Shown piece by piece: positions 8,892 to 40,477 of a DNA stretch of 64,000 nucleotides. Positions within the stretch are counted from its first letter, which is position 1, and the number at the start of each line of letters is the position of its first letter. The notes under the pieces are model-generated. The model was not told the origin of the DNA. It made no database searches and was given only the letters and a program-made list of their open reading frames with translations. Source of the stretch: Desulforamulus putei DSM 12395 (GTDB lineage Bacteria > Bacillota > Desulfotomaculia > Desulfotomaculales > Desulfotomaculaceae); NCBI RefSeq assembly GCF_900129195.1, contig NZ_FQUY01000010.1, positions 1-64,000 of the forward strand. The letters are read 5' to 3'. Position numbers and translations under genes: made by a program.

Positions 8892-10181
8892 TTATTCGTA
8901 GTTTTCTCTTAAATCAAAGACACGTTTACTCTTCTTTTCCGACCTTGGTAAGCTGCCGTAGGCCACCGCTTCCACTTCGCACTGGATGCCGATGCGGGAT
9001 TTGATATTCCTCCGGCATTCTTCGCTCACCTGTACCGGGTCAAAGCCCTCCCGGACCTCCACTTTGATAGAGAGACGGTCTTTCCCCGCCGACCGGGTAA
9101 GAATCATTTGATATTCACTGCCGGCTCCCTTTGATAATTTTAACACATGATCAATTTGCCCGGGATAAATATTGACCCCTTTTACCTTGACCATGTCATC
9201 GGTCCTGCCCAGCACCCGGTCGATCATGGGGAAGGGAGAACCGCAGGGACAGCGCTCTGGGCGCAGCCGGGTGATGTCGTGGGTACGATACCGCAGCAGG
9301 GGCATTCCTTCTTTGGTCAGTGTGGTAATCACCAGTTCTCCCTGCCGGCCGGGGGCCAGTTGTTCGCCGGTAACCGGATCGATGATTTCAAACAACAAAT
9401 GGTCGGACCAGAAATGCAAACCGTTATGAATTGGACAATCGATGGCGATGCCGGGACCGTAGATTTCCGTTAGCCCGTAAATATCATAGGTTTCAATTCC
9501 CAGCAATTCCTCAATGCGCCCCCGCATTTTGTCTCCCCAGCGTTCACTGCCGAAGATTCCCCTGCGCAGGGCCAGTCTGTTCTTGATACCCCGTTTATGA
9601 ATTTCCTCCGCCAACAGCAGCCCGTAGGAAGATGTGCCGATGAGCACCGTGGCCTGCAAATCTTCCATGAGTTCCAGTTGTTTTTCGGTATTGCCCGGCC
9701 CCGTGGGTATGGTCATGGCCCCCAGACGCTCTACTCCGGCCTGAAAGCCGATGCCTGCGGTCCACAAACCGTAACCGGGGGTGACCTGCACCCGGTCCTT
9801 TCTGGTTACACCGGCGGCGGCCAGGCAGCGGGCCATCATCTCCGCCCAAACATTCACGTCACCGGCGGTATATGGGACAATAATAGGTTTTCCGGTGGTG
9901 CCGGAGGACGAATGAATGCGAATCACTTCCTCATCGGAAACGGCCTGCAGTCCCAGGGGATAACCCGCCCGTAGTTCTGTTTTGGTGGTAAAGGGTACCA
10001 TGGCCAGATCCTTGATGGTCCGTATTTGTTCAGGTTTTATCCCCGCTTCATCCAGCTTCCGGCGATAAAAAGGCGAATGTTTATAGATGCGGTGCATCAA
10101 CTTTGGCAGCTGTTTTTCCTGAAGGGCAAAAAGATGATCGTAATTAAAAGAGGAATCTCTTTGTTGAAGAAATAAGGACAA
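8892..10181 (-). CDS. Phenylacetate/arylacetate-CoA ligase (AMP-forming)
   Basis: 429 aa from the TTG at 10181, chosen because GGGAGGTG lies 7 bases upstream. PaaK family: adenylate motif IHSSSGTTGKP (near residue 89), YGLTEIYGPG, the hinge region RTDDMVKVKGVNIYPGQI, and the CPCG metal-like motif. It activates arylacetates to CoA thioesters with ATP. It is the last gene of the ECF-iorAB operon, one base after iorB. IorAB interconverts arylpyruvate and arylacetyl-CoA, so this ligase would feed arylacetyl-CoA into reductive carboxylation, or be reversed to release arylacetate. The regulatory leader favours the biosynthetic direction. Specificity (indoleacetate versus phenylacetate) cannot be read from sequence. 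Confidence 0.9.
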   Translation of the reverse strand: MSLFLQQRDSSFNYDHLFALQEKQLPKLMHRIYKHSPFYRRKLDEAGIKPEQIRTIKDLAMVPFTTKTELRAGYPLGLQAVSDEEVIRIHSSSGTTGKPIIVPYTAGDVNVWAEMMARCLAAAGVTRKDRVQVTPGYGLWTAGIGFQAGVERLGAMTIPTGPGNTEKQLELMEDLQATVLIGTSSYGLLLAEEIHKRGIKNRLALRRGIFGSERWGDKMRGRIEELLGIETYDIYGLTEIYGPGIAIDCPIHNGLHFWSDHLLFEIIDPVTGEQLAPGRQGELVITTLTKEGMPLLRYRTHDITRLRPERCPCGSPFPMIDRVLGRTDDMVKVKGVNIYPGQIDHVLKLSKGAGSEYQMILTRSAGKDRLSIKVEVREGFDPVQVSEECRRNIKSRIGIQCEVEAVAYGSLPRSEKKSKRVFDLRENYE

Positions 10182-10182
10182 A

Positions 10183-10773
10183 TTAAGCACCTCCCACTGC
10201 CTGCCGGCCCAGTGCAAAGGCCGTCAGATTCATTTCCCGCAGCCTCGGGGGGATGACATCTTCCATCACCGCCCTGAGGTGATCGGCGCTGTAGGGCAGC
10301 AGGTCTAATACAGACAGCGCCCCCAGCATGACCATATTGGTGGCTTTATAAGTACCGGCCTGGTTGGCTAACGAAGTAGCATCAAACAAATATAGGGAGT
10401 CTGTTCTTTCCTTGAGAAAAGCAGTCAACTGTTCGGGGTGATAGGAGGAAAACCCCAGGGAAACCGAAACAGGATAGATGGTGGCGGAGTTGGCAATAAC
10501 AACGGCGCCTTTTTTTAGTTTCGTTACCGCACGAACTGTTTCCGCCAGTTCCAACCCCAGGAGTACATCTGCCTGGCCGTTGGGGATTAACGCACTATAA
10601 TCACCAGCCCCCATTCGTACCTGGCTCATGACCGCCCCTTCCCTTTGGGCCATGCCAATGACCTCGGAAGTTCGTACGGGCAGACCGACCTCCATGGCAG
10701 CACGGGCTAAAATACGGGAGGCCAGGACATTCCCCTGTCCTCCGACGCCGGCAATCACGATATCCAGCCTCAT
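10183..10773 (-). CDS. iorB: Indolepyruvate ferredoxin oxidoreductase, beta subunit
   Basis: 196 aa gamma-type (POR-gamma) subunit. The opening IVIAGVGGQGNVLASRIL is the family hallmark. With IorA it interconverts indolepyruvate (or other arylpyruvates), CoA and oxidised ferredoxin with indoleacetyl-CoA, CO2 and reduced ferredoxin. It overlaps iorA by an ATGA-type junction and is followed one base later by the CoA ligase. Usual length, no oddities. Cytoplasmic, oxygen-sensitive complex. Confidence 0.95.
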   Translation of the reverse strand: MRLDIVIAGVGGQGNVLASRILARAAMEVGLPVRTSEVIGMAQREGAVMSQVRMGAGDYSALIPNGQADVLLGLELAETVRAVTKLKKGAVVIANSATIYPVSVSLGFSSYHPEQLTAFLKERTDSLYLFDATSLANQAGTYKATNMVMLGALSVLDLLPYSADHLRAVMEDVIPPRLREMNLTAFALGRQAVGGA

Positions 10774-12572
10774 CGGATCACTCCTCCCTCTGTTATGGCC
10801 TCACAGGGGCAGATCTGGCGGCACAAATCACAGCCGGTGCAGGTGGCGCCGATGACCGGTCCCTGCTCTCCCCTGGAGATGGCCGGACAGCCCAACTCTT
10901 CAATACAAAGCCCGCAGTGGATACACTTTGCAGCATCAATGGTCCTGGGAGCCTTGCGCTCTTTTACCAGGGCCACACATTCCTTTCTCATGACGACCAG
11001 GGAGACGCCGTTAAATTCCAGGGCTTCCCGGGCGGCAGCCAGCGCAGCTTGATAATCGAGGGGGTCCACCACTTTTACCAATGGAACCCCGCAGGCTTCC
11101 GCCAGTTTTGCTATATCCAGCGGTTGCACCGGCTCACCGGCAGCGTTCCGGTTAAGCCCCGGGTGACTCTGGTGACCGGTCATGGCAGTGGTCCGGTTAT
11201 CTAAAACCACCACAGTGATCTTTGAACCGTTGTGAACAGCATTGATCAATCCGGGAAGGCCGGTATGGAAAAAGGTGGAATCCCCCAGAAAAGCAATCAC
11301 TCTTCGTTCTTTCTCTGCCAACTGGAGCCCGGAACCTATGGTAATACTGGCTCCCATGCACAGGCAGGTATCCACCGCGTGCAAGGGGGCCATGTTGCCC
11401 AAAGTATAGCAGCCAATATCTCCGGTAAAAATGGCATCGCTGCCGGCTGCCGCTTGTTTGAAGACATAGAAGGAAGCCCGGTGCGGGCACCCGGCACACA
11501 ACACCGGCGGGCGAACCGGCAAAGGAGGTTGGCTCATGGCTTCTTCCGGTGGTAAATCAATTCTTAAAAATTTTGCTAAAATCCCTTTGACTTTGTCGGT
11601 GTCCAATTCACCCTCCCGGGGCACCAGGTGGTTGTATTTGCCCTTTACCACTAGGGGGCGCCTGTGCTGCCAGACTAACTTTATGAGCTGGTCTTCCAGT
11701 ACCGGTTCCTGCTCTTCCACCACCAGGACCCGGTCAAGCTGATCCAGAAACCGTAACACCAGGTTTACAGGCAGCGGGTAAGGCGTGCCGATTTTCAGCA
11801 CCGGCAGGTTGAGGCCTAACAATGCAAGGGCCTCCTTAACGTAATGATAGGCTACGCCGCCGGCGATGATCCCCTGTCGCCCGGTGCCGGGGCTGACAGT
11901 ATTAAAGGGACTGGTTTCCAACATTTCCCTGGCCTTTTCTTGTTGCTGATTCAGCCAAATATGACGTTGGGCGGCCAGGCTGGGGAAAATTACCCACTCC
12001 GGACCCTTTTGAAAACCGGTATGCCCCCGTGATGGCAAAGTTTTGTCCACCACTTCTACGTCCTGGCAAACATGACAGGTGCGGGTGGTTGGCCGAAGAA
12101 TCACCGGCAGCCCCAGTTCCTCGGACAGCCGGAAGGCTTCCCTGGCCATTTCTTTGGCCTCCCGGGGATCCGCCGGATCCAGGACCGGCAGTTTGGCAAA
12201 CTGGGCGAACTTTCGGGTATCCTGCTCATTTTGAGAACTGTGGGGCCCCGGGTCATCGGCCACCGCCAGCACCAGCCCCCCTTTCACCCCAATATAGGCC
12301 AGGGTCATCAGGGGGTCTGCCGCCACATTCAATCCCACTTGTTTCATGGTGACCATGGCTCTGGCGCCGGCGTAGGCGGCCCCGGCGGCCACCTCCAGGG
12401 CCACTTTTTCGTTGACTGACCATTCGGCATAGAATCCCCTCTCTTTGGCCAGGGAAGCCAGGGTGGTAAAAATCTCGGAAGACGGAGTTCCCGGGTAGCC
12501 TGTGACCACCTGCACCCCGGCCTCCAACGCTCCATAAGCAATGGCCTCGTTGCCCATTAACAGTTTCTTCAT
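10770..12572 (-). CDS. iorA: Indolepyruvate ferredoxin oxidoreductase, alpha subunit
   Basis: About 600 aa. ATG at 12572 (MKKLLMGNEAIAYGAL) was chosen over an upstream frame extension because AACGGAGG lies just before it. Pyrimidine-binding domain with YPGTPSSEI (near residue 26), TPP/Mg domain GDIGCYTLG...GDSTFFHTG, and a C-terminal ferredoxin domain with CIHCGLCIEELGCP and CTGCDLCRQICP for two [4Fe-4S] clusters. It uses TPP to decarboxylate arylpyruvates, or in reverse to carboxylate arylacetyl-CoA. It forms the enzyme with IorB and is co-transcribed with an ECF transporter 13 bases upstream. Confidence 0.97.
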   Translation of the reverse strand: MKKLLMGNEAIAYGALEAGVQVVTGYPGTPSSEIFTTLASLAKERGFYAEWSVNEKVALEVAAGAAYAGARAMVTMKQVGLNVAADPLMTLAYIGVKGGLVLAVADDPGPHSSQNEQDTRKFAQFAKLPVLDPADPREAKEMAREAFRLSEELGLPVILRPTTRTCHVCQDVEVVDKTLPSRGHTGFQKGPEWVIFPSLAAQRHIWLNQQQEKAREMLETSPFNTVSPGTGRQGIIAGGVAYHYVKEALALLGLNLPVLKIGTPYPLPVNLVLRFLDQLDRVLVVEEQEPVLEDQLIKLVWQHRRPLVVKGKYNHLVPREGELDTDKVKGILAKFLRIDLPPEEAMSQPPLPVRPPVLCAGCPHRASFYVFKQAAAGSDAIFTGDIGCYTLGNMAPLHAVDTCLCMGASITIGSGLQLAEKERRVIAFLGDSTFFHTGLPGLINAVHNGSKITVVVLDNRTTAMTGHQSHPGLNRNAAGEPVQPLDIAKLAEACGVPLVKVVDPLDYQAALAAAREALEFNGVSLVVMRKECVALVKERKAPRTIDAAKCIHCGLCIEELGCPAISRGEQGPVIGATCTGCDLCRQICPCEAITEGGVIR

Positions 12573-12585
12573 CAAACGACCTCCG

Positions 12586-13380
12586 TTACAGTTGAACAAC
12601 TCCGTATCCTTGCATCCTTAAAAACAATGCCAGAACAATGAAGATTAAGGTTGATAAAATGACCATCATATCCAGCTTTGTGATGGCAGGTTCCTTATAA
12701 TATGTGCGGATGCCGCTGCCATAGCCCCTGGTCTCCATGGCAATGGCCAAGCGTTCCGCCTTTTTCAGTGAGATCAGGACCAGCGGCAAAGCCACTGTGG
12801 CATAGGCTTTTATTTTTTGTAAAGGGTTCCCGCTGTCCACGGGACAACCCCTTACCTGCTGGGCATAACGGACCTGTACCGCTTCTGCCATAAAAGTGGG
12901 CACAAACCGCAGGGCCGTCATAAACATGAACACATAATCATAGGGAAGTTTAAGCTTCTCGGTGAGAACCAGGATAATGTCTTTATACTGGGTGGTGGCT
13001 AAAAAGATGATAAAACTTAATACCACCGCCATCATTCTTACGGCCATGGCCAGCCCCATGTACAGGGCCTCCCCGGTAACCGGCAGAATATGGCCGGGCA
13101 ACAGGTAAAACAGGACTTCCTCACCCTGGAAGAAGATAACCTGTAGAAGCACTAAGATGCCGGCAAAGACCGTCAAACCTTTAAAAACAGTAGCCAAATC
13201 CTTCAGCACTTTACCCAGCAGCGCCACCGCCACCACCGTGGATAACAGCGTTAACAGATAGTACACATTGTTAAAGGCGAGCGCCAAAAACATAACCCCC
13301 AGCGCCCAGGCCAGCTTACTTAGCGGATTTAAGCTATGGACCACGGATTCCCGGTATACATACTCAATCACACGGGCCAT
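12586..13380 (-). CDS. ecfT: ECF transporter transmembrane subunit
   Basis: 264 aa integral membrane protein with five or six hydrophobic helices. It has the coupling-helix motif near residue 212 (ERLAIAMETRGYGSG), the A-x-RG signature through which EcfT grips the two ATPases. The ATG at 13380 follows GGAGGTAGCATCG and overlaps the ATPase gene by 17 bases. It makes a complete ECF module with the two EcfA proteins and a dedicated S component. Its operon partners are iorAB and an arylacetate-CoA ligase, which suggests an aromatic amino acid or related substrate. Confidence 0.92.
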   Translation of the reverse strand: MARVIEYVYRESVVHSLNPLSKLAWALGVMFLALAFNNVYYLLTLLSTVVAVALLGKVLKDLATVFKGLTVFAGILVLLQVIFFQGEEVLFYLLPGHILPVTGEALYMGLAMAVRMMAVVLSFIIFLATTQYKDIILVLTEKLKLPYDYVFMFMTALRFVPTFMAEAVQVRYAQQVRGCPVDSGNPLQKIKAYATVALPLVLISLKKAERLAIAMETRGYGSGIRTYYKEPAITKLDMMVILSTLIFIVLALFLRMQGYGVVQL

Positions 13381-14215
13381 CGATGCTACCTCCGTTCACC
13401 TTGTGCAAGTGTTCAACCATTTCGTCCACCGTCAAGATGACTTCTGAACCCGGGGTAAGCAAACCGTTCAACCGGTTGGCCAGCAGAGTAATTTGGGGTG
13501 GTTCCAGTAAGGTTTGGGCCAGTAGTTGGGTCTGGCTTAATACATCTCTGGTAGAACCGTCCGCAATCACCCTTCCCTGACAGAGAACAATCACTCGCCG
13601 AGCGTACCGGGCCACCAGGGTCATATCGTGGGTAATAAAGAGGATGGTATGCCCCTCCCGGTTCAGGTCACGGACAAGTTCCATAATCTGCAGCCTTTCC
13701 AGGGAATCCTGCCCGGTGGTGGGTTCATCCAAAATGATGATCCTGGTTTGCATAGCCAGCACGGAAGCCAGGGCCACCCTCTGGCGCTGCCCCCGGCTTA
13801 GCCGGTGGGGGTAAACCTGGGCCAGATGCTGGAGGCCTACATCCCTCAGGGCTGCCGCCACCCGTTTCTCAATTTCATCCCGGGGTAAGCCCAGGTTCTG
13901 CAGACCAAAGGCCACTTCCTTTTGCACCGTGTCATGGAAGATTTGGTGGTCGGGATTCTGAAATACAAATCCGACCTGCCGGGCCAGGTGGGAAATGCGG
14001 GTCTTCGCAGCATCCTGCCCGCACACGGTGACCCGACCGGTCTGGGGGCGCAGCAGTCCGATGCAATGTTTAACCAGCGTGGTTTTGCCGGCGCCGTTCT
14101 GGCCCACCAGGGCCACCAGCTCACCCGGGTAAATGGTTAGATTAATATCCTGCAGGGCCGGTTGACCCTGTTCGTAACTGTAAGACAAACCCTTTATGTC
14201 AATGAGCGGTTGCAT
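13364..14215 (-). CDS. ecfA: ECF transporter ATP-binding subunit (second)
   Basis: About 283 aa from the ATG at 14215, chosen because GGAGGAAAATT precedes it. ABC ATPase: Walker A GQNGAGKTT, Q-loop FVFQNPDHQIF, signature LSRGQRQRVALAS, Walker B IIILDEPTTGQD, and the H-loop in ITHDM. It powers substrate import with the other EcfA and EcfT. The start lies 22 bases inside the upstream ATPase gene, so the two are translationally coupled. The last ~60 residues form the C-terminal EcfA dimerisation segment. Confidence 0.92.
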   Translation of the reverse strand: MQPLIDIKGLSYSYEQGQPALQDINLTIYPGELVALVGQNGAGKTTLVKHCIGLLRPQTGRVTVCGQDAAKTRISHLARQVGFVFQNPDHQIFHDTVQKEVAFGLQNLGLPRDEIEKRVAAALRDVGLQHLAQVYPHRLSRGQRQRVALASVLAMQTRIIILDEPTTGQDSLERLQIMELVRDLNREGHTILFITHDMTLVARYARRVIVLCQGRVIADGSTRDVLSQTQLLAQTLLEPPQITLLANRLNGLLTPGSEVILTVDEMVEHLHKVNGGSIDGPCD

Positions 14216-15078
14216 AATTTTCCTCCGCCGCCGGGCACCAGTGCCCGGCAAAATTCAATGCCTTCCTCCAGGGTAATGGGCAAATGACACCGGCCGCCGT
14301 TAAGCCTCAAAGCCAATTCGGTGACCTGGGGCAGCGCCACCCCCAGATGGTAAATGCTTTTATGCTTAAAAACCTCCCGGGGCGTTCCTGCCAATGCCAC
14401 TTCTCCCTGGGATAAAATCACCAACTGATCACAGTGGCGGGCCAGCAATTCGGTTTTTTGTTCCGCCACCAGCACTGTGATACCATGCTTAACGTTCAGC
14501 TGTTTTAGTACCGTGAATACTTCTTCGGTGCCCAGAGGATCCAACTCTGAAGTTGGTTCATCCAGGACCAGCACCTCCGGCAGCAGGGCCAAGGCGGCGG
14601 CAATGGCCAGACGCTGTTTCTGACCGCCGGAAAGGGAGCGGGTGGACCTGTGCCTCAGGTGGCTGATTCCTACACTGGACAAAGCAGTTGTGATCCGCTG
14701 TTCCATTTCATCCGGCGGCACCCCGTAGTTTTCCAGGCCAAAGACCAGTTCTTGTTCCACATCCAGGCAAATGATTTGGGCCTCCGGGTCATCCAATACG
14801 GTGCCCACCAGGCGGCCGATTTCCGCCGTGGATAAATTGCCGGTGGGGCAACCCTTGAGAAGCACCTGGCCGCTGCAGGCGCCTCCTTCCACGTGAGGAA
14901 TGATACCGTTGATGGACTTTATTAAAGTGGTTTTACCAGCCCCGGTGGGGCCGGTAAAACCGATAAAAGATCCCTTTGGCAGGGTCAGGTTGATGTCTTT
15001 CAAGGCATAAAAATCGGTATTGGGATAGCGGTAGCTGAAACGCTTAAAACAAACCACCGGTTCCGCCGCTGCTGTCAT
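14194..15078 (-). CDS. ecfA: ECF transporter ATP-binding subunit (first)
   Basis: 294 aa ABC ATPase. Walker A GPTGAGKTT (near residue 44), Q-loop region VLDDPEAQII, signature LSGGQKQRLAIAAALA, Walker B VLVLDEPTSELD. The DDPEAQ version of the Q-helix is characteristic of EcfA proteins and not of ordinary ABC importers. The switch position in VLVAEQKTE has Glu where ABC ATPases usually have His, so this site may hydrolyse poorly and the pair may be asymmetric. It lies 21 bases after the S component and overlaps the second ATPase gene. Confidence 0.92.
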   Translation of the reverse strand: MTAAAEPVVCFKRFSYRYPNTDFYALKDINLTLPKGSFIGFTGPTGAGKTTLIKSINGIIPHVEGGACSGQVLLKGCPTGNLSTAEIGRLVGTVLDDPEAQIICLDVEQELVFGLENYGVPPDEMEQRITTALSSVGISHLRHRSTRSLSGGQKQRLAIAAALALLPEVLVLDEPTSELDPLGTEEVFTVLKQLNVKHGITVLVAEQKTELLARHCDQLVILSQGEVALAGTPREVFKHKSIYHLGVALPQVTELALRLNGGRCHLPITLEEGIEFCRALVPGGGGKLCNRSLT

Positions 15079-15099: not shown

Positions 15100-15648
15100 C
15101 TAACGATAGAGAAATTTTTTGACCGGCGCGTACAATGCCTGGGCAATCACCATGTTAATGACAGCCACCGGTATCACCACGCCCACAAAGGCAGCCTGCA
15201 TGGCAGCCACAGGCAAGTTCAAGGCCAACCGGAAATTTAAGACCACATATAAACCGCCGCTGACCAGGGTCCCCATGAGGGTGGCCAAGGAAGGCTTGAA
15301 GGAATAATTTTTGATGGAAAATTCCGGCAAATAACTGGCCAGCAGGGCACAAACCAAGGCGCCGGCCGGCTCAGTGGCCAGGTTCAGGTAGGGGATGGGA
15401 GACTTGGAAAAAATCATGCTCACAGCGCCGGCTACAATGCCGATCCCCAGAGCCATGCCGATCCTAGGGCGCAGGAGAAGGATCGCCAAACAGTACATGG
15501 CGATGACAAAGTTCGGTGTAATGCCTAATATGGCTGGGGAAAACATGCGAAGAACGGCGCCGATGGCAATCAAAAAGGCCACCACCGCAATTTCTTTGGT
15601 CTTGCTCATCTTACCGATAATCACTTGCTCAACTACGGGATTGCTCAT
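15100..15648 (-). CDS. ECF transporter S component, TrpP-like (probable tryptophan uptake)
   Basis: About 182 aa from the ATG at 15648, chosen because AAGGAGAG lies 8 bases before it; an in-frame ATG six bases earlier sits on top of that RBS. Six hydrophobic segments, starting with IAVVAFLIAIGAVLRMFSP and FVIAMYCLAILLL, as in S components of the TrpP type. It is the substrate-binding membrane protein of the module encoded next to it. Tryptophan or a related arylacetate as substrate is inferred from the TRAP-like leader and from iorAB downstream. The family placement is from recall; another small aromatic substrate remains possible. Confidence 0.75.
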   Translation of the reverse strand: MSNPVVEQVIIGKMSKTKEIAVVAFLIAIGAVLRMFSPAILGITPNFVIAMYCLAILLLRPRIGMALGIGIVAGAVSMIFSKSPIPYLNLATEPAGALVCALLASYLPEFSIKNYSFKPSLATLMGTLVSGGLYVVLNFRLALNLPVAAMQAAFVGVVIPVAVINMVIAQALYAPVKKFLYR

Positions 15649-15671: not shown

Positions 15672-15704
15672 AAATTTAAAAAACCAGGCAAGAGCAGCCT
15701 GGTT
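15672..15704 (-). terminator. Intrinsic terminator inside the ECF-iorAB leader
   Basis: On the minus strand AACCAGGC / GCCTGGTT with loop TGCTCTT, then TTTTTTAAATTT. It lies between the promoter and the first gene, so it must act as an attenuator. CTGCTC in its loop side (15692-15697) is complementary to GAGCAG inside the GAG-repeat array (15757-15762). This offers a competing antiterminator pairing that a bound protein would prevent. Confidence 0.85.
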
Positions 15705-15734
15705 AAAGACACGGCAAAACTAAGCGCACCGGTA

Positions 15735-15814
15735 CTCCCCTCAGCTCAACTCATCTCTGCTCACCTCCGATATTAAGTTGTAGAAACCCTCAGCTAAAAA
15801 TGGTTCTATGACTA
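15735..15814 (-). promoter_or_regulatory. TRAP (MtrB)-type binding site: 11 GAG/UAG triplets
   Basis: Read on the minus strand, seven GAG triplets occur with an exact 5-base period (plus-strand CTC at 15735, 15740, 15745, 15750, 15755, 15760, 15765). Upstream come GAG at 15789, and UAG at 15794, 15806 and 15812, making 11 in total. TRAP of Bacillus binds 11 G/UAG triplets separated by 2-3 bases, one per subunit, when tryptophan is bound. Eight of the ten steps fit that spacing; two gaps (9 and 21 bases) do not. The array lies just before an intrinsic terminator, the arrangement of TRAP attenuators. No mtrB gene is in this window. Confidence 0.75.
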
Positions 15815-15827
15815 AACCTTGTCATTT

Positions 15828-15856
15828 AGTTTAGCACAAACAGGCGCACCTGTCAC
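15828..15856 (-). promoter_or_regulatory. Promoter of the ECF-iorAB operon
   Basis: Minus strand GTGACA (15851-15856), 17-base spacer, TAAACT (15828-15833). It predicts a start near 15820, about 6 bases before the first UAG triplet, giving a leader of roughly 170 bases. It begins 28 bases downstream of the yedF stop, so the operon is separate from selD-yedF. Confidence 0.6.
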
Positions 15857-15883: not shown

Positions 15884-16474
15884 TTATAAAGTAATGACCG
15901 TCCCTCCGGCAGTCAGGTTTTCCAGAATCTCCAGCATATTGGTCACCCGACCCACCGCCAGTTGATCCTTTAATTTATAATAATCCAGGCAGGTGCCGCA
16001 GGAAAGCACTTCGGTGCCCCGCCGGGCCAGTTTTGTAATTTGCTCCAGCACCCGGGACTGTTGAACGGCCAAACGAACCCCCGAGTTCACCAGCATGATC
16101 ACCCTAGGGGCGGGTTTTTCCAGGAGACTGTTAAAGAAACTCACCATCAAGGTCTCTCCCAGGTCTTCGGCCCCGTTGCCAAAGGTATTGCTGGTGATAA
16201 GATAAACCACGGGTCCGGTCTCACATTTGCCGGGTACCGCCACTGCCGGCCCTGTTCCTTCGCCCTTGGTGATGGTAATATAGAATTCCCCGTTCTTTTC
16301 CTCCACGCTGACCTTACAACCGGCATTTTCAGCAAACCGGGTTACATTTTCGAGGGCCACCCGGTTATCCACAACGGAGACCACGGTACCCTGTTCCATT
16401 TCCTCCAGCGCCTTTTTGGTATTGATAACCGGCTGCGGGCAAGCCAGCCCGCGGTTATTAATTTCCCTGATCAT
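15884..16474 (-). CDS. yedF: Selenium metabolism protein YedF (TusA domain plus DsrE-like domain)
   Basis: 196 aa. The N-terminal ~75 residues are a TusA-like domain with the CPxP motif (NRGLACPQPVINTKKAL, Cys12). The C-terminal part is a DsrE-like fold (VYLITSNTFGNGAEDLGETLM, then LSCGTCLDYY with two Cys). This two-domain form occurs beside selD in selenium-using bacteria and is thought to carry or deliver persulfide/perselenide. Here it overlaps selD by 17 bases, so the two are co-translated. The exact biochemical role in the family is not settled. Confidence 0.9.
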   Translation of the reverse strand: MIREINNRGLACPQPVINTKKALEEMEQGTVVSVVDNRVALENVTRFAENAGCKVSVEEKNGEFYITITKGEGTGPAVAVPGKCETGPVVYLITSNTFGNGAEDLGETLMVSFFNSLLEKPAPRVIMLVNSGVRLAVQQSRVLEQITKLARRGTEVLSCGTCLDYYKLKDQLAVGRVTNMLEILENLTAGGTVITL

Positions 16475-17522
16475 GCTGTTTCCCCCTCTGGATTGTGATC
16501 AAATATTGACCCGGGGGTGTTAGTTCGCCGACAATCCTAGCATCTGCCACGCCCCGGAGGTGTAATTCCTTTACTAAAGTCTCTGCCCTAGCGGGTTGTA
16601 CGGCGATCAACAACCCTCCGGAGGTTTGAGGATCAAAGAAGATATCAGTCTCTTCCCGGGTAACCCCTTCCTCAATCTTTACCTGATCGCCCAGGTGGTT
16701 CCGGTTGTTATAAGCCCCGGCAGGTATAATCCCCATCCGGGCCAGTTCCCTTGCCCCGGGTAAAACAGGAACCTCCCCGGCGTAAAGGTTTATACTTAAG
16801 CCGCTGGCCCGGGCCATCTCGGCAGCATGTCCCAGGAAGCCAAAACCCGTGATATCCGTACAAGCGGATGCTCCAACATCCAGCATGGCGCCGGCCGCCT
16901 CTTTATTCAGTGAAGCCATGGTGGCAATGGCCCTGTTCATGATTTCCGGACCTACCAGATCCGCTTTAATACCCGTATTGATAATGCCCGTGCCCAGGGG
17001 TTTGGTCAAAACTAAAAGGTCCCCTGTTTTGGCAGTGGCGTTGCTGTAGATCTTGTCCGGGTGTACCATCCCGGTAACGGCCAGGCCGTATTTGGGTTCG
17101 TCGTCCTGCACACTGTGCCCACCGGCAATGATGGCGCCGGCCTCGGTGACTTTATCCGCACCACCCCTTAAAATCTCTTTCAGGATGTCCGGGGACAAGC
17201 AGGCGGGGAAGCAAACGATATTAAGGGCCAACAGCGGCGTGCCGCCCATGGCATAAACATCGCTCAAGGCGTTGGCTGCCGCAATCTGGCCAAAAAGATA
17301 AGGGTCATCCACCATGGGTGTAAAAAAATCCACGGTTTGAATGGTGGCCAGTTCATCATTCAGACGATAAACCGCCGCATCGTCTGAAGTATCCAGACCC
17401 ACCAGCAGGTCAGGGTTCGTATTCTTGGGCAGATGACGCAGTACCTGCGACAGGACCTCCGGTCCTACTTTGGCCGCTCACCCGGCAGCCTTTGTCATTT
17501 GCGTCAATCTGATCTTTGCCAC
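16458..17522 (-). CDS. selD: Selenide, water dikinase, selenocysteine-containing
   Basis: 354 aa when read through an in-frame TGA at 17478-17480. The GTG start at 17522 gives VAKIRLTQMTKAAGU, then AAKVGPEVLSQVL, matching the SelD N-terminus where Cys or Sec is the active-site residue (here Sec15). The ATP-binding Gly-rich and Asp motifs follow (GLDTSDDAAVY, IIAGGHSVQDDEP, and the DxTGFG motif). It makes selenophosphate from selenide and ATP for tRNA-Sec charging. A hairpin just after the TGA fits a bacterial SECIS. Gene callers that stop at TGA would start it falsely at 17402. SelA, SelB and tRNA-Sec must be elsewhere. Confidence 0.95.
17445..17480 (-). promoter_or_regulatory. Bacterial SECIS element of selD
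   Basis: After the UGA and an 11-base linker, the mRNA reads AGGACC-GGA-GGTCCT, a perfect 6-bp hairpin with a G-rich loop whose apex is 17 bases beyond UGA (stem 17452-17466). Bacterial SECIS elements recognised by SelB have this position and guanines in the apical loop. Confidence 0.75.
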
Positions 17523-40226: not shown

Positions 40227-40243
40227 TGATGCAAATATCATAT

Positions 40244-40477
40244 CCAGGCGATGATGGAGAACAGTAAAAATCCGACGTCTGACAGAGAGTGGAACTCGGC
40301 GGCTGGAAGGTTCCTCAGACTACGATTTTGAAACCCGCTCCGGAGTTGTTCGGGAATAAACCGGACCGGCGGCCTCCGATACAGGGCAAAGAGTGAATGC
40401 ATAATATTTATGCATTAATAAAGGTGGTACCGCGAAAGTCAACCCTTTCGTCCTTTGGGACGAAAGGGTTTTTGTTT
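40244..40477 (+). ncRNA. T-box riboswitch leader of proBAC
   Basis: A leader with the T-box landmark AAGGTGGTACCGCG (40421-40434) followed by an intrinsic terminator (AACCCTTTCGTCC / GACGAAAGGGTT, then TTTGTTTTC, 40441-40477). Stem I is framed by GTGGAACTC and GGAGTTGTTC. The likely specifier is CCC (40334-40336, in GAAACCCGC), a proline codon. Uncharged tRNA-Pro would base-pair with the specifier and the T-box bulge, forming the antiterminator and turning on proline synthesis. The exact specifier is inferred; ACC in an offset reading would be threonine, but the operon makes proline. Confidence 0.92.

Follow-up and report, generated by a model that had tools for sequence, protein, structure and literature searches.

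The window, a stretch of 64,000 nucleotides from Desulforamulus putei DSM 12395, carries on its minus strand an operon that joins a transporter to an oxidoreductase and a CoA ligase. Its first gene is trpP (15100..15648), the S component of an ECF transporter, which matched Pfam TrpP (PF17099) with 57.3 bits against a cut-off of 27.2. It is followed by two ECF ATPases (14194..15078 and 13364..14212) and by a T component of the CbiQ family (12586..13380). Then come iorA (10770..12572), the alpha subunit of indolepyruvate:ferredoxin oxidoreductase (IOR; TIGR03336, 820 bits against a cut-off of 651), iorB (10183..10773), the beta subunit, which matched POR (PF01558) and fell below the equivalog cut-off of TIGR03334 (IOR_beta), and the gene for an AMP-forming aryl-acid CoA ligase (8892..10199). 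Because the ligase scored 437 bits against the PaaK equivalog TIGR02155, whose cut-off is 646, we class it only as a PaaK-like AMP-forming ligase. The gene order trpP-ecfA-ecfA-ecfT-iorA-iorB-paaK was the same in all full-length orthologs. Upstream of the operon, yedF follows selD, and its end lies immediately ahead of the trpP promoter. Close to its start, the selD gene (16458-17510, minus strand) contains an in-frame TGA, which gives AAGUAAKVGPEVL if read as selenocysteine, and the listed open reading frame begins downstream of it; SelD is probably itself a selenoprotein. Elsewhere in the window, a T-box leader (40242-40458, plus strand) precedes a proB-proA-like gene pair.

Between yedF on one side and trpP on the other, the minus strand holds the leader of the operon. 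A consensus scan placed a promoter, GTGACA-17-TAAACT, at 15828..15856 and an intrinsic terminator, with an 8-bp stem (15704-15682), a 7-nt loop and a U tract, at 15676..15704. The first-pass annotation had described seven GAG triplets at an exact 5-base period and four further G/UAG triplets, 11 in all, with a terminator behind them, and the triplet positions bear this out. The main array (15735..15767) consists of GAG triplets starting at 15767, 15762, 15757, 15752, 15747, 15742 and 15737, all 5 nt apart. The 5' part (15789..15814) holds TAG at 15814, 15808 and 15796 and GAG at 15791, with irregular steps of 6, 12 and 5 nt, and a 24-nt step separates this last GAG from the one at 15767. The 11 triplets between promoter and terminator thus include only seven contiguous ones, and the two gaps that had been named as a weak point of the array are real, the 5' part being irregular with its steps of 6, 12 and 24. 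One extra TAG stands alone at 15722, beyond the 11. The array lies about 90 nt from the trpP start, with the terminator in between. A comparison of the leader with Rfam returned no RNA family match.

The start of the main array (15760-15790 of the window, and likewise in orthologs) reads GGAGGTGAG, a Shine-Dalgarno-like string, and an A/T-rich motif resembling ACAATTTnATA is conserved before it. In 9 of 13 trpP leaders an ATG-AGy-TGA mini-ORF comes after this Shine-Dalgarno-like array start, and the Pelotomaculum leaders retain the ATG by means of a 3-nt spacer. The mini-ORF might serve a leader-peptide mechanism, but GAG repeats readily give rise to strings of this kind, and two genomes (G031 and G051) have not kept the frame.

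We quantified the array with a chain score that rewards 5-nt steps, using 1000 dinucleotide-preserving shuffles as the null. The array scored 7.35 against a shuffle maximum of 4.85, so that none of the 1000 shuffles reached it. Across the 3.1 Mb genome, exact KAGNN arrays of five in a row occurred in three regions only: the leader of the trpE operon, the trpP leader, and two tandem arrays ahead of an amino-acid permease. A reversed-pattern control of this search is not independent, since GAG reads the same backwards. The array at the trpE operon was the expected positive control within the same genome. The tandem arrays (G000:C34:51148-51298, about 7149-7299 of L024) lie upstream of a permease of family PF00324, and each is followed by a possible terminator; paired arrays of similar kind were seen at G001:C11 and G008:C53.

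The leader is conserved well beyond D. putei. Array and terminator were kept in all members of the genus that have trpP, and in one genome (G002) the array is still there although the trpP frame is broken. Pelotomaculum and other Peptococcaceae-type operons kept the array with 9-12 triplets, a score that again no shuffle out of 1000 reached; in orthologs 9-11 of the triplets are nearly contiguous. The promoter hexamers and their 17-nt spacer were retained in most orthologous leaders, and GAG triplets stood near the ribosome-binding site in several orthologs. The Pelotomaculum leaders have in addition a strong hairpin at their 5' end, a feature reminiscent of the 5' stem-loop in the trp leader of B. 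subtilis.

The absence of mtrB, the gene for TRAP, had been noted as a weakness; it is absent from the window alone. A genome search found it at C18:44172-44372 (PF02081, 133 bits), on the same contig as the trp leader array and about 7 kb from it. The closest chains to this MtrB are solved TRAP structures, matching residues 10-75 (65 residues), and its segments KLDKGE and KIRG include the lysines and arginine that contact RNA in B. subtilis TRAP. Nine of 10 genomes of the family carry mtrB, as do 105 of 113 across the class. Together with the conservation of array and terminator in several genera, the presence of mtrB supports the original reading of a TRAP-type leader: of the conditions named in advance as refuting it, neither a lack of MtrB nor a loss of the array from orthologous leaders was borne out. 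We rejected anti-TRAP as a conserved partner: a search gave one clear free-standing match (in G063) and none in the D. putei genome, and the remaining matches were weak and lay mostly inside long frames of other proteins.

The occurrence of the array in the class bears on whether it goes with the transporter or with the enzymes. We surveyed the 113 genomes of the class for six-triplet arrays. Most of these stood at trpE, and there were also some at trpB, TrpB2, a tryptophan-type ABC transporter and trpP. Unexpectedly, others stood directly at iorA with no transporter (G005, G051 and G060), at the CoA ligase (G010 and G011) or at DctP (G062). In G061, G062, G063 and G065 a DctPQM tripartite carboxylate transporter replaces trpP-ECF before iorAB and the ligase. 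The array thus persists where trpP-ECF is absent or has been swapped for DctPQM. Further candidate TRAP targets among the loci collected were tryptophan-type ABC transporter operons, TrpB2 and trpB (L146, L147, L148, L149, L132, L133 and L136). Arrays of six or seven triplets also occurred before an Fe-alcohol dehydrogenase (L150, G097:C14) and a Uma2-family gene (L153, G112:C48); these may be chance or new targets.

We then compared two sets of loci from the class: 38 of the IorA clade found in the window, at 59-84% identity, and 18 of IorA paralogs. The coding strand was scanned up to 6.5 kb upstream with an array threshold score of 4.5. Arrays were found upstream of 29 of the 38 clade loci and of none of the 18 paralogs (Fisher P = 2e-8, a value that overstates independence because the loci are related by descent). 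The maximum score was 2.6 among the paralogs and 3.45 in the antisense control, and lowering the threshold to 3.5 gave 32 of 38 against 0 of 18. On the tree, arrays were retained across many families of the IorA clade while the upstream genes changed. The association links the array to the enzyme genes. Nine clade loci fell below the threshold; three of these have weak arrays and two lie at contig ends. In G053 and G058, clade loci without an array, no ligase gene adjoins iorAB. The paralogous iorA genes often have a PaaK-like gene nearby, yet no array. One expectation, that arrays would be missing from trpP operons lacking iorAB, proved wrong: G051 has a strong array at its separate trpP-ECF operon, although at L041 and L048 the arrays are weak or absent.

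These results bear on whether TRAP is involved at all. A GAG repeat might arise by chance, serve as a structural repeat or bind another protein, and GAG arrays do resemble a purine-rich ribosome-binding sequence, as the Shine-Dalgarno-like array start illustrates. We regard such an origin as very improbable in view of the shuffle test, the conservation across genera, the trpE array in the same genome, the near-universal mtrB and the difference between the IorA clade and its paralogs. Judged from sequence, this is a genuine and conserved TRAP-type leader on a new type of target, and TRAP is predicted to bind it.

How binding would be converted into control is a separate question. The first-pass annotation had pointed to GAGCAG in the array and CTGCTC in the terminator loop as an obvious antiterminator. 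The complementarity exists over 6 bp, but shuffling the terminator sequence gave pairings as good too often (p = 0.15), and the match is not conserved within the genus; no antiterminator beyond chance was found in the trpP leader of D. putei. The folding comparison that had been suggested as a check did not come out in favor of a switch either: equilibrium folds with and without blocked triplets revealed none. At equilibrium the terminator is favored in our leader, and folding of the full transcript always retained it. Among all leaders folded at full length, only one had a minimum-energy structure lacking the terminator, and there it costs <2 kcal/mol. By contrast, the leaders of the DctPQM group have a clear candidate, an 8-9 bp pairing of the last triplets with one arm of the terminator (GATGAGTG:CACTCATC; for the majority of these leaders, p is about 0.01), which has the form of a textbook antiterminator that excludes the terminator stem.

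Read-through of our own leader may therefore be governed by folding during transcription, by direct TRAP-induced termination or by something else. B. subtilis TRAP is able to cause termination without an attenuator hairpin (PMC3913778). It is possible, though we lean against it, that TRAP binds here and exerts its control mainly by direct termination or by translational repression, the terminator working without an antiterminator switch. The B. subtilis precedent, the lack of an antiterminator beyond chance in our leader and the GAG triplets near the ribosome-binding site of several orthologs would agree with this, whereas the strong conservation of the terminator and the excluding antiterminators of the DctPQM-iorAB-paaK relatives argue against it.

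Since the leader looks like a TRAP site, its presence suggests that cells with enough tryptophan switch off an alternative salvage route. We consider it probable that the operon is a TRAP-repressed salvage operon, in which a transporter, an AMP-forming aryl-acid CoA ligase and IOR serve the salvage of indoleacetate, of tryptophan or of both. With ample tryptophan, the nascent RNA would be wrapped at its GAG/UAG array by TRAP (MtrB), and RNA polymerase would stop at the terminator without reaching trpP. Under tryptophan shortage it would read through, and TrpP-ECF, IorAB and the CoA ligase would be made. The operon would then serve to take up tryptophan, indole-3-acetate (or an aryl acid like it) or both. 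At the expense of ATP the ligase would convert the acid to its CoA ester, and IorAB, working in the reductive direction with ferredoxin and CO2, would yield indolepyruvate, from which a general aminotransferase would form tryptophan. With both the ligase and IorB below their equivalog cut-offs, the substrate of the ligase could be another aryl acid. TRAP binding, the response to tryptophan, the direction of the enzymes and the ligase substrate are inferred. A reductive direction has precedents: in Methanococcus maripaludis IOR runs biosynthetically (PMC4162585, PMC3462420), and in Bacteroides the pairing of IOR with an AMP-forming ligase, a type that favors acyl-CoA synthesis, has been taken as a hint of a biosynthetic role as in methanogens (PMC13285125). 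Repression by tryptophan fits an anabolic direction, and acid uptake would be in keeping with the exchange of TrpP for a carboxylate transporter.

The same genes could also be read in the opposite direction. IOR is oxidative in peptide-fermenting anaerobes, and trpP of the same operon is by family a tryptophan importer, so TrpP-ECF might import tryptophan under TRAP control while IorAB oxidises indolepyruvate and the ligase recycles spilled indoleacetate; a related oxidative pathway is described in PMC13285125. We think this unlikely. Catabolic genes under such control would be off exactly when tryptophan is abundant, the AMP-forming type of the ligase is the one that favors the CoA ester, and elsewhere in the class the arrays stand on genes of trp biosynthesis and uptake. 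Extending the anabolic reading to the whole class is more tentative, and we would give it slightly less than an even chance: one IorA clade and an AMP-forming ligase would belong to the TRAP regulon and make tryptophan from scavenged indole-3-acetate, with TrpP-ECF or DctPQM as interchangeable transporters.

TRAP control is known mainly from Bacillus, where it acts on trp biosynthesis and trpP. The TRAP-type control described here is found throughout a class of anaerobes and on an enzyme pair with an unsettled physiological direction in bacteria. Being controlled by the end product argues independently for an anabolic direction of IOR. The exchange of transporters (ECF TrpP, DctPQM or none) before the same enzymes hints at what the module imports. 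Among the papers searched, none dealt with TRAP control of iorAB or of an ECF-type trpP, an absence that is weak evidence. The S component of the operon, overlooked as such in the first-pass annotation, is TrpP, which TRAP is known to target in Bacillus. As a TRAP target the operon is therefore far less of a surprise, and it is the enzyme half that stays unexpected.

The leader resembles that of B. subtilis trpEDCFBA in having a G/UAG array followed by a hairpin and a U tract before the first gene, and the systems share mtrB in the genome and tryptophan-related genes downstream. In B. subtilis the TRAP site is made up of 11 repeats spaced by 2-3 nt (PMC3913778), whereas our array has two gaps. 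It is split by the 24-nt step, its intrinsic terminator is stronger than that of the B. subtilis trp leader, there is no clear antiterminator, and the target is transport, IOR and a CoA ligase rather than trpE. As in B. subtilis trpP (yhaG), a TrpP-family gene lies under a TRAP-type array. There, trpP stands alone, and TRAP represses its translation by covering the Shine-Dalgarno sequence (PMC13170310), so TRAP control of a trpP operon is expected in kind. Our array, by contrast, lies well upstream of the start codon and is separated from it by a terminator, and our trpP is the first gene of an operon with ECF, iorAB and ligase genes; the transcriptional form of control and the enzyme genes iorAB and CoA ligase are the new and unexpected part. 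With the M. maripaludis route from aryl acids to aromatic amino acids the operon shares IorAB as the candidate reductive carboxylating enzyme, and it differs in being bacterial, in having an AMP-forming ligase in the operon and in its predicted tryptophan-responsive RNA control. In the Bacteroides system (PMC13285125), IOR likewise adjoins an AMP-forming arylacetate-CoA ligase with a proposed biosynthetic role; no TRAP control is reported there, and our operon adds the transporter genes.
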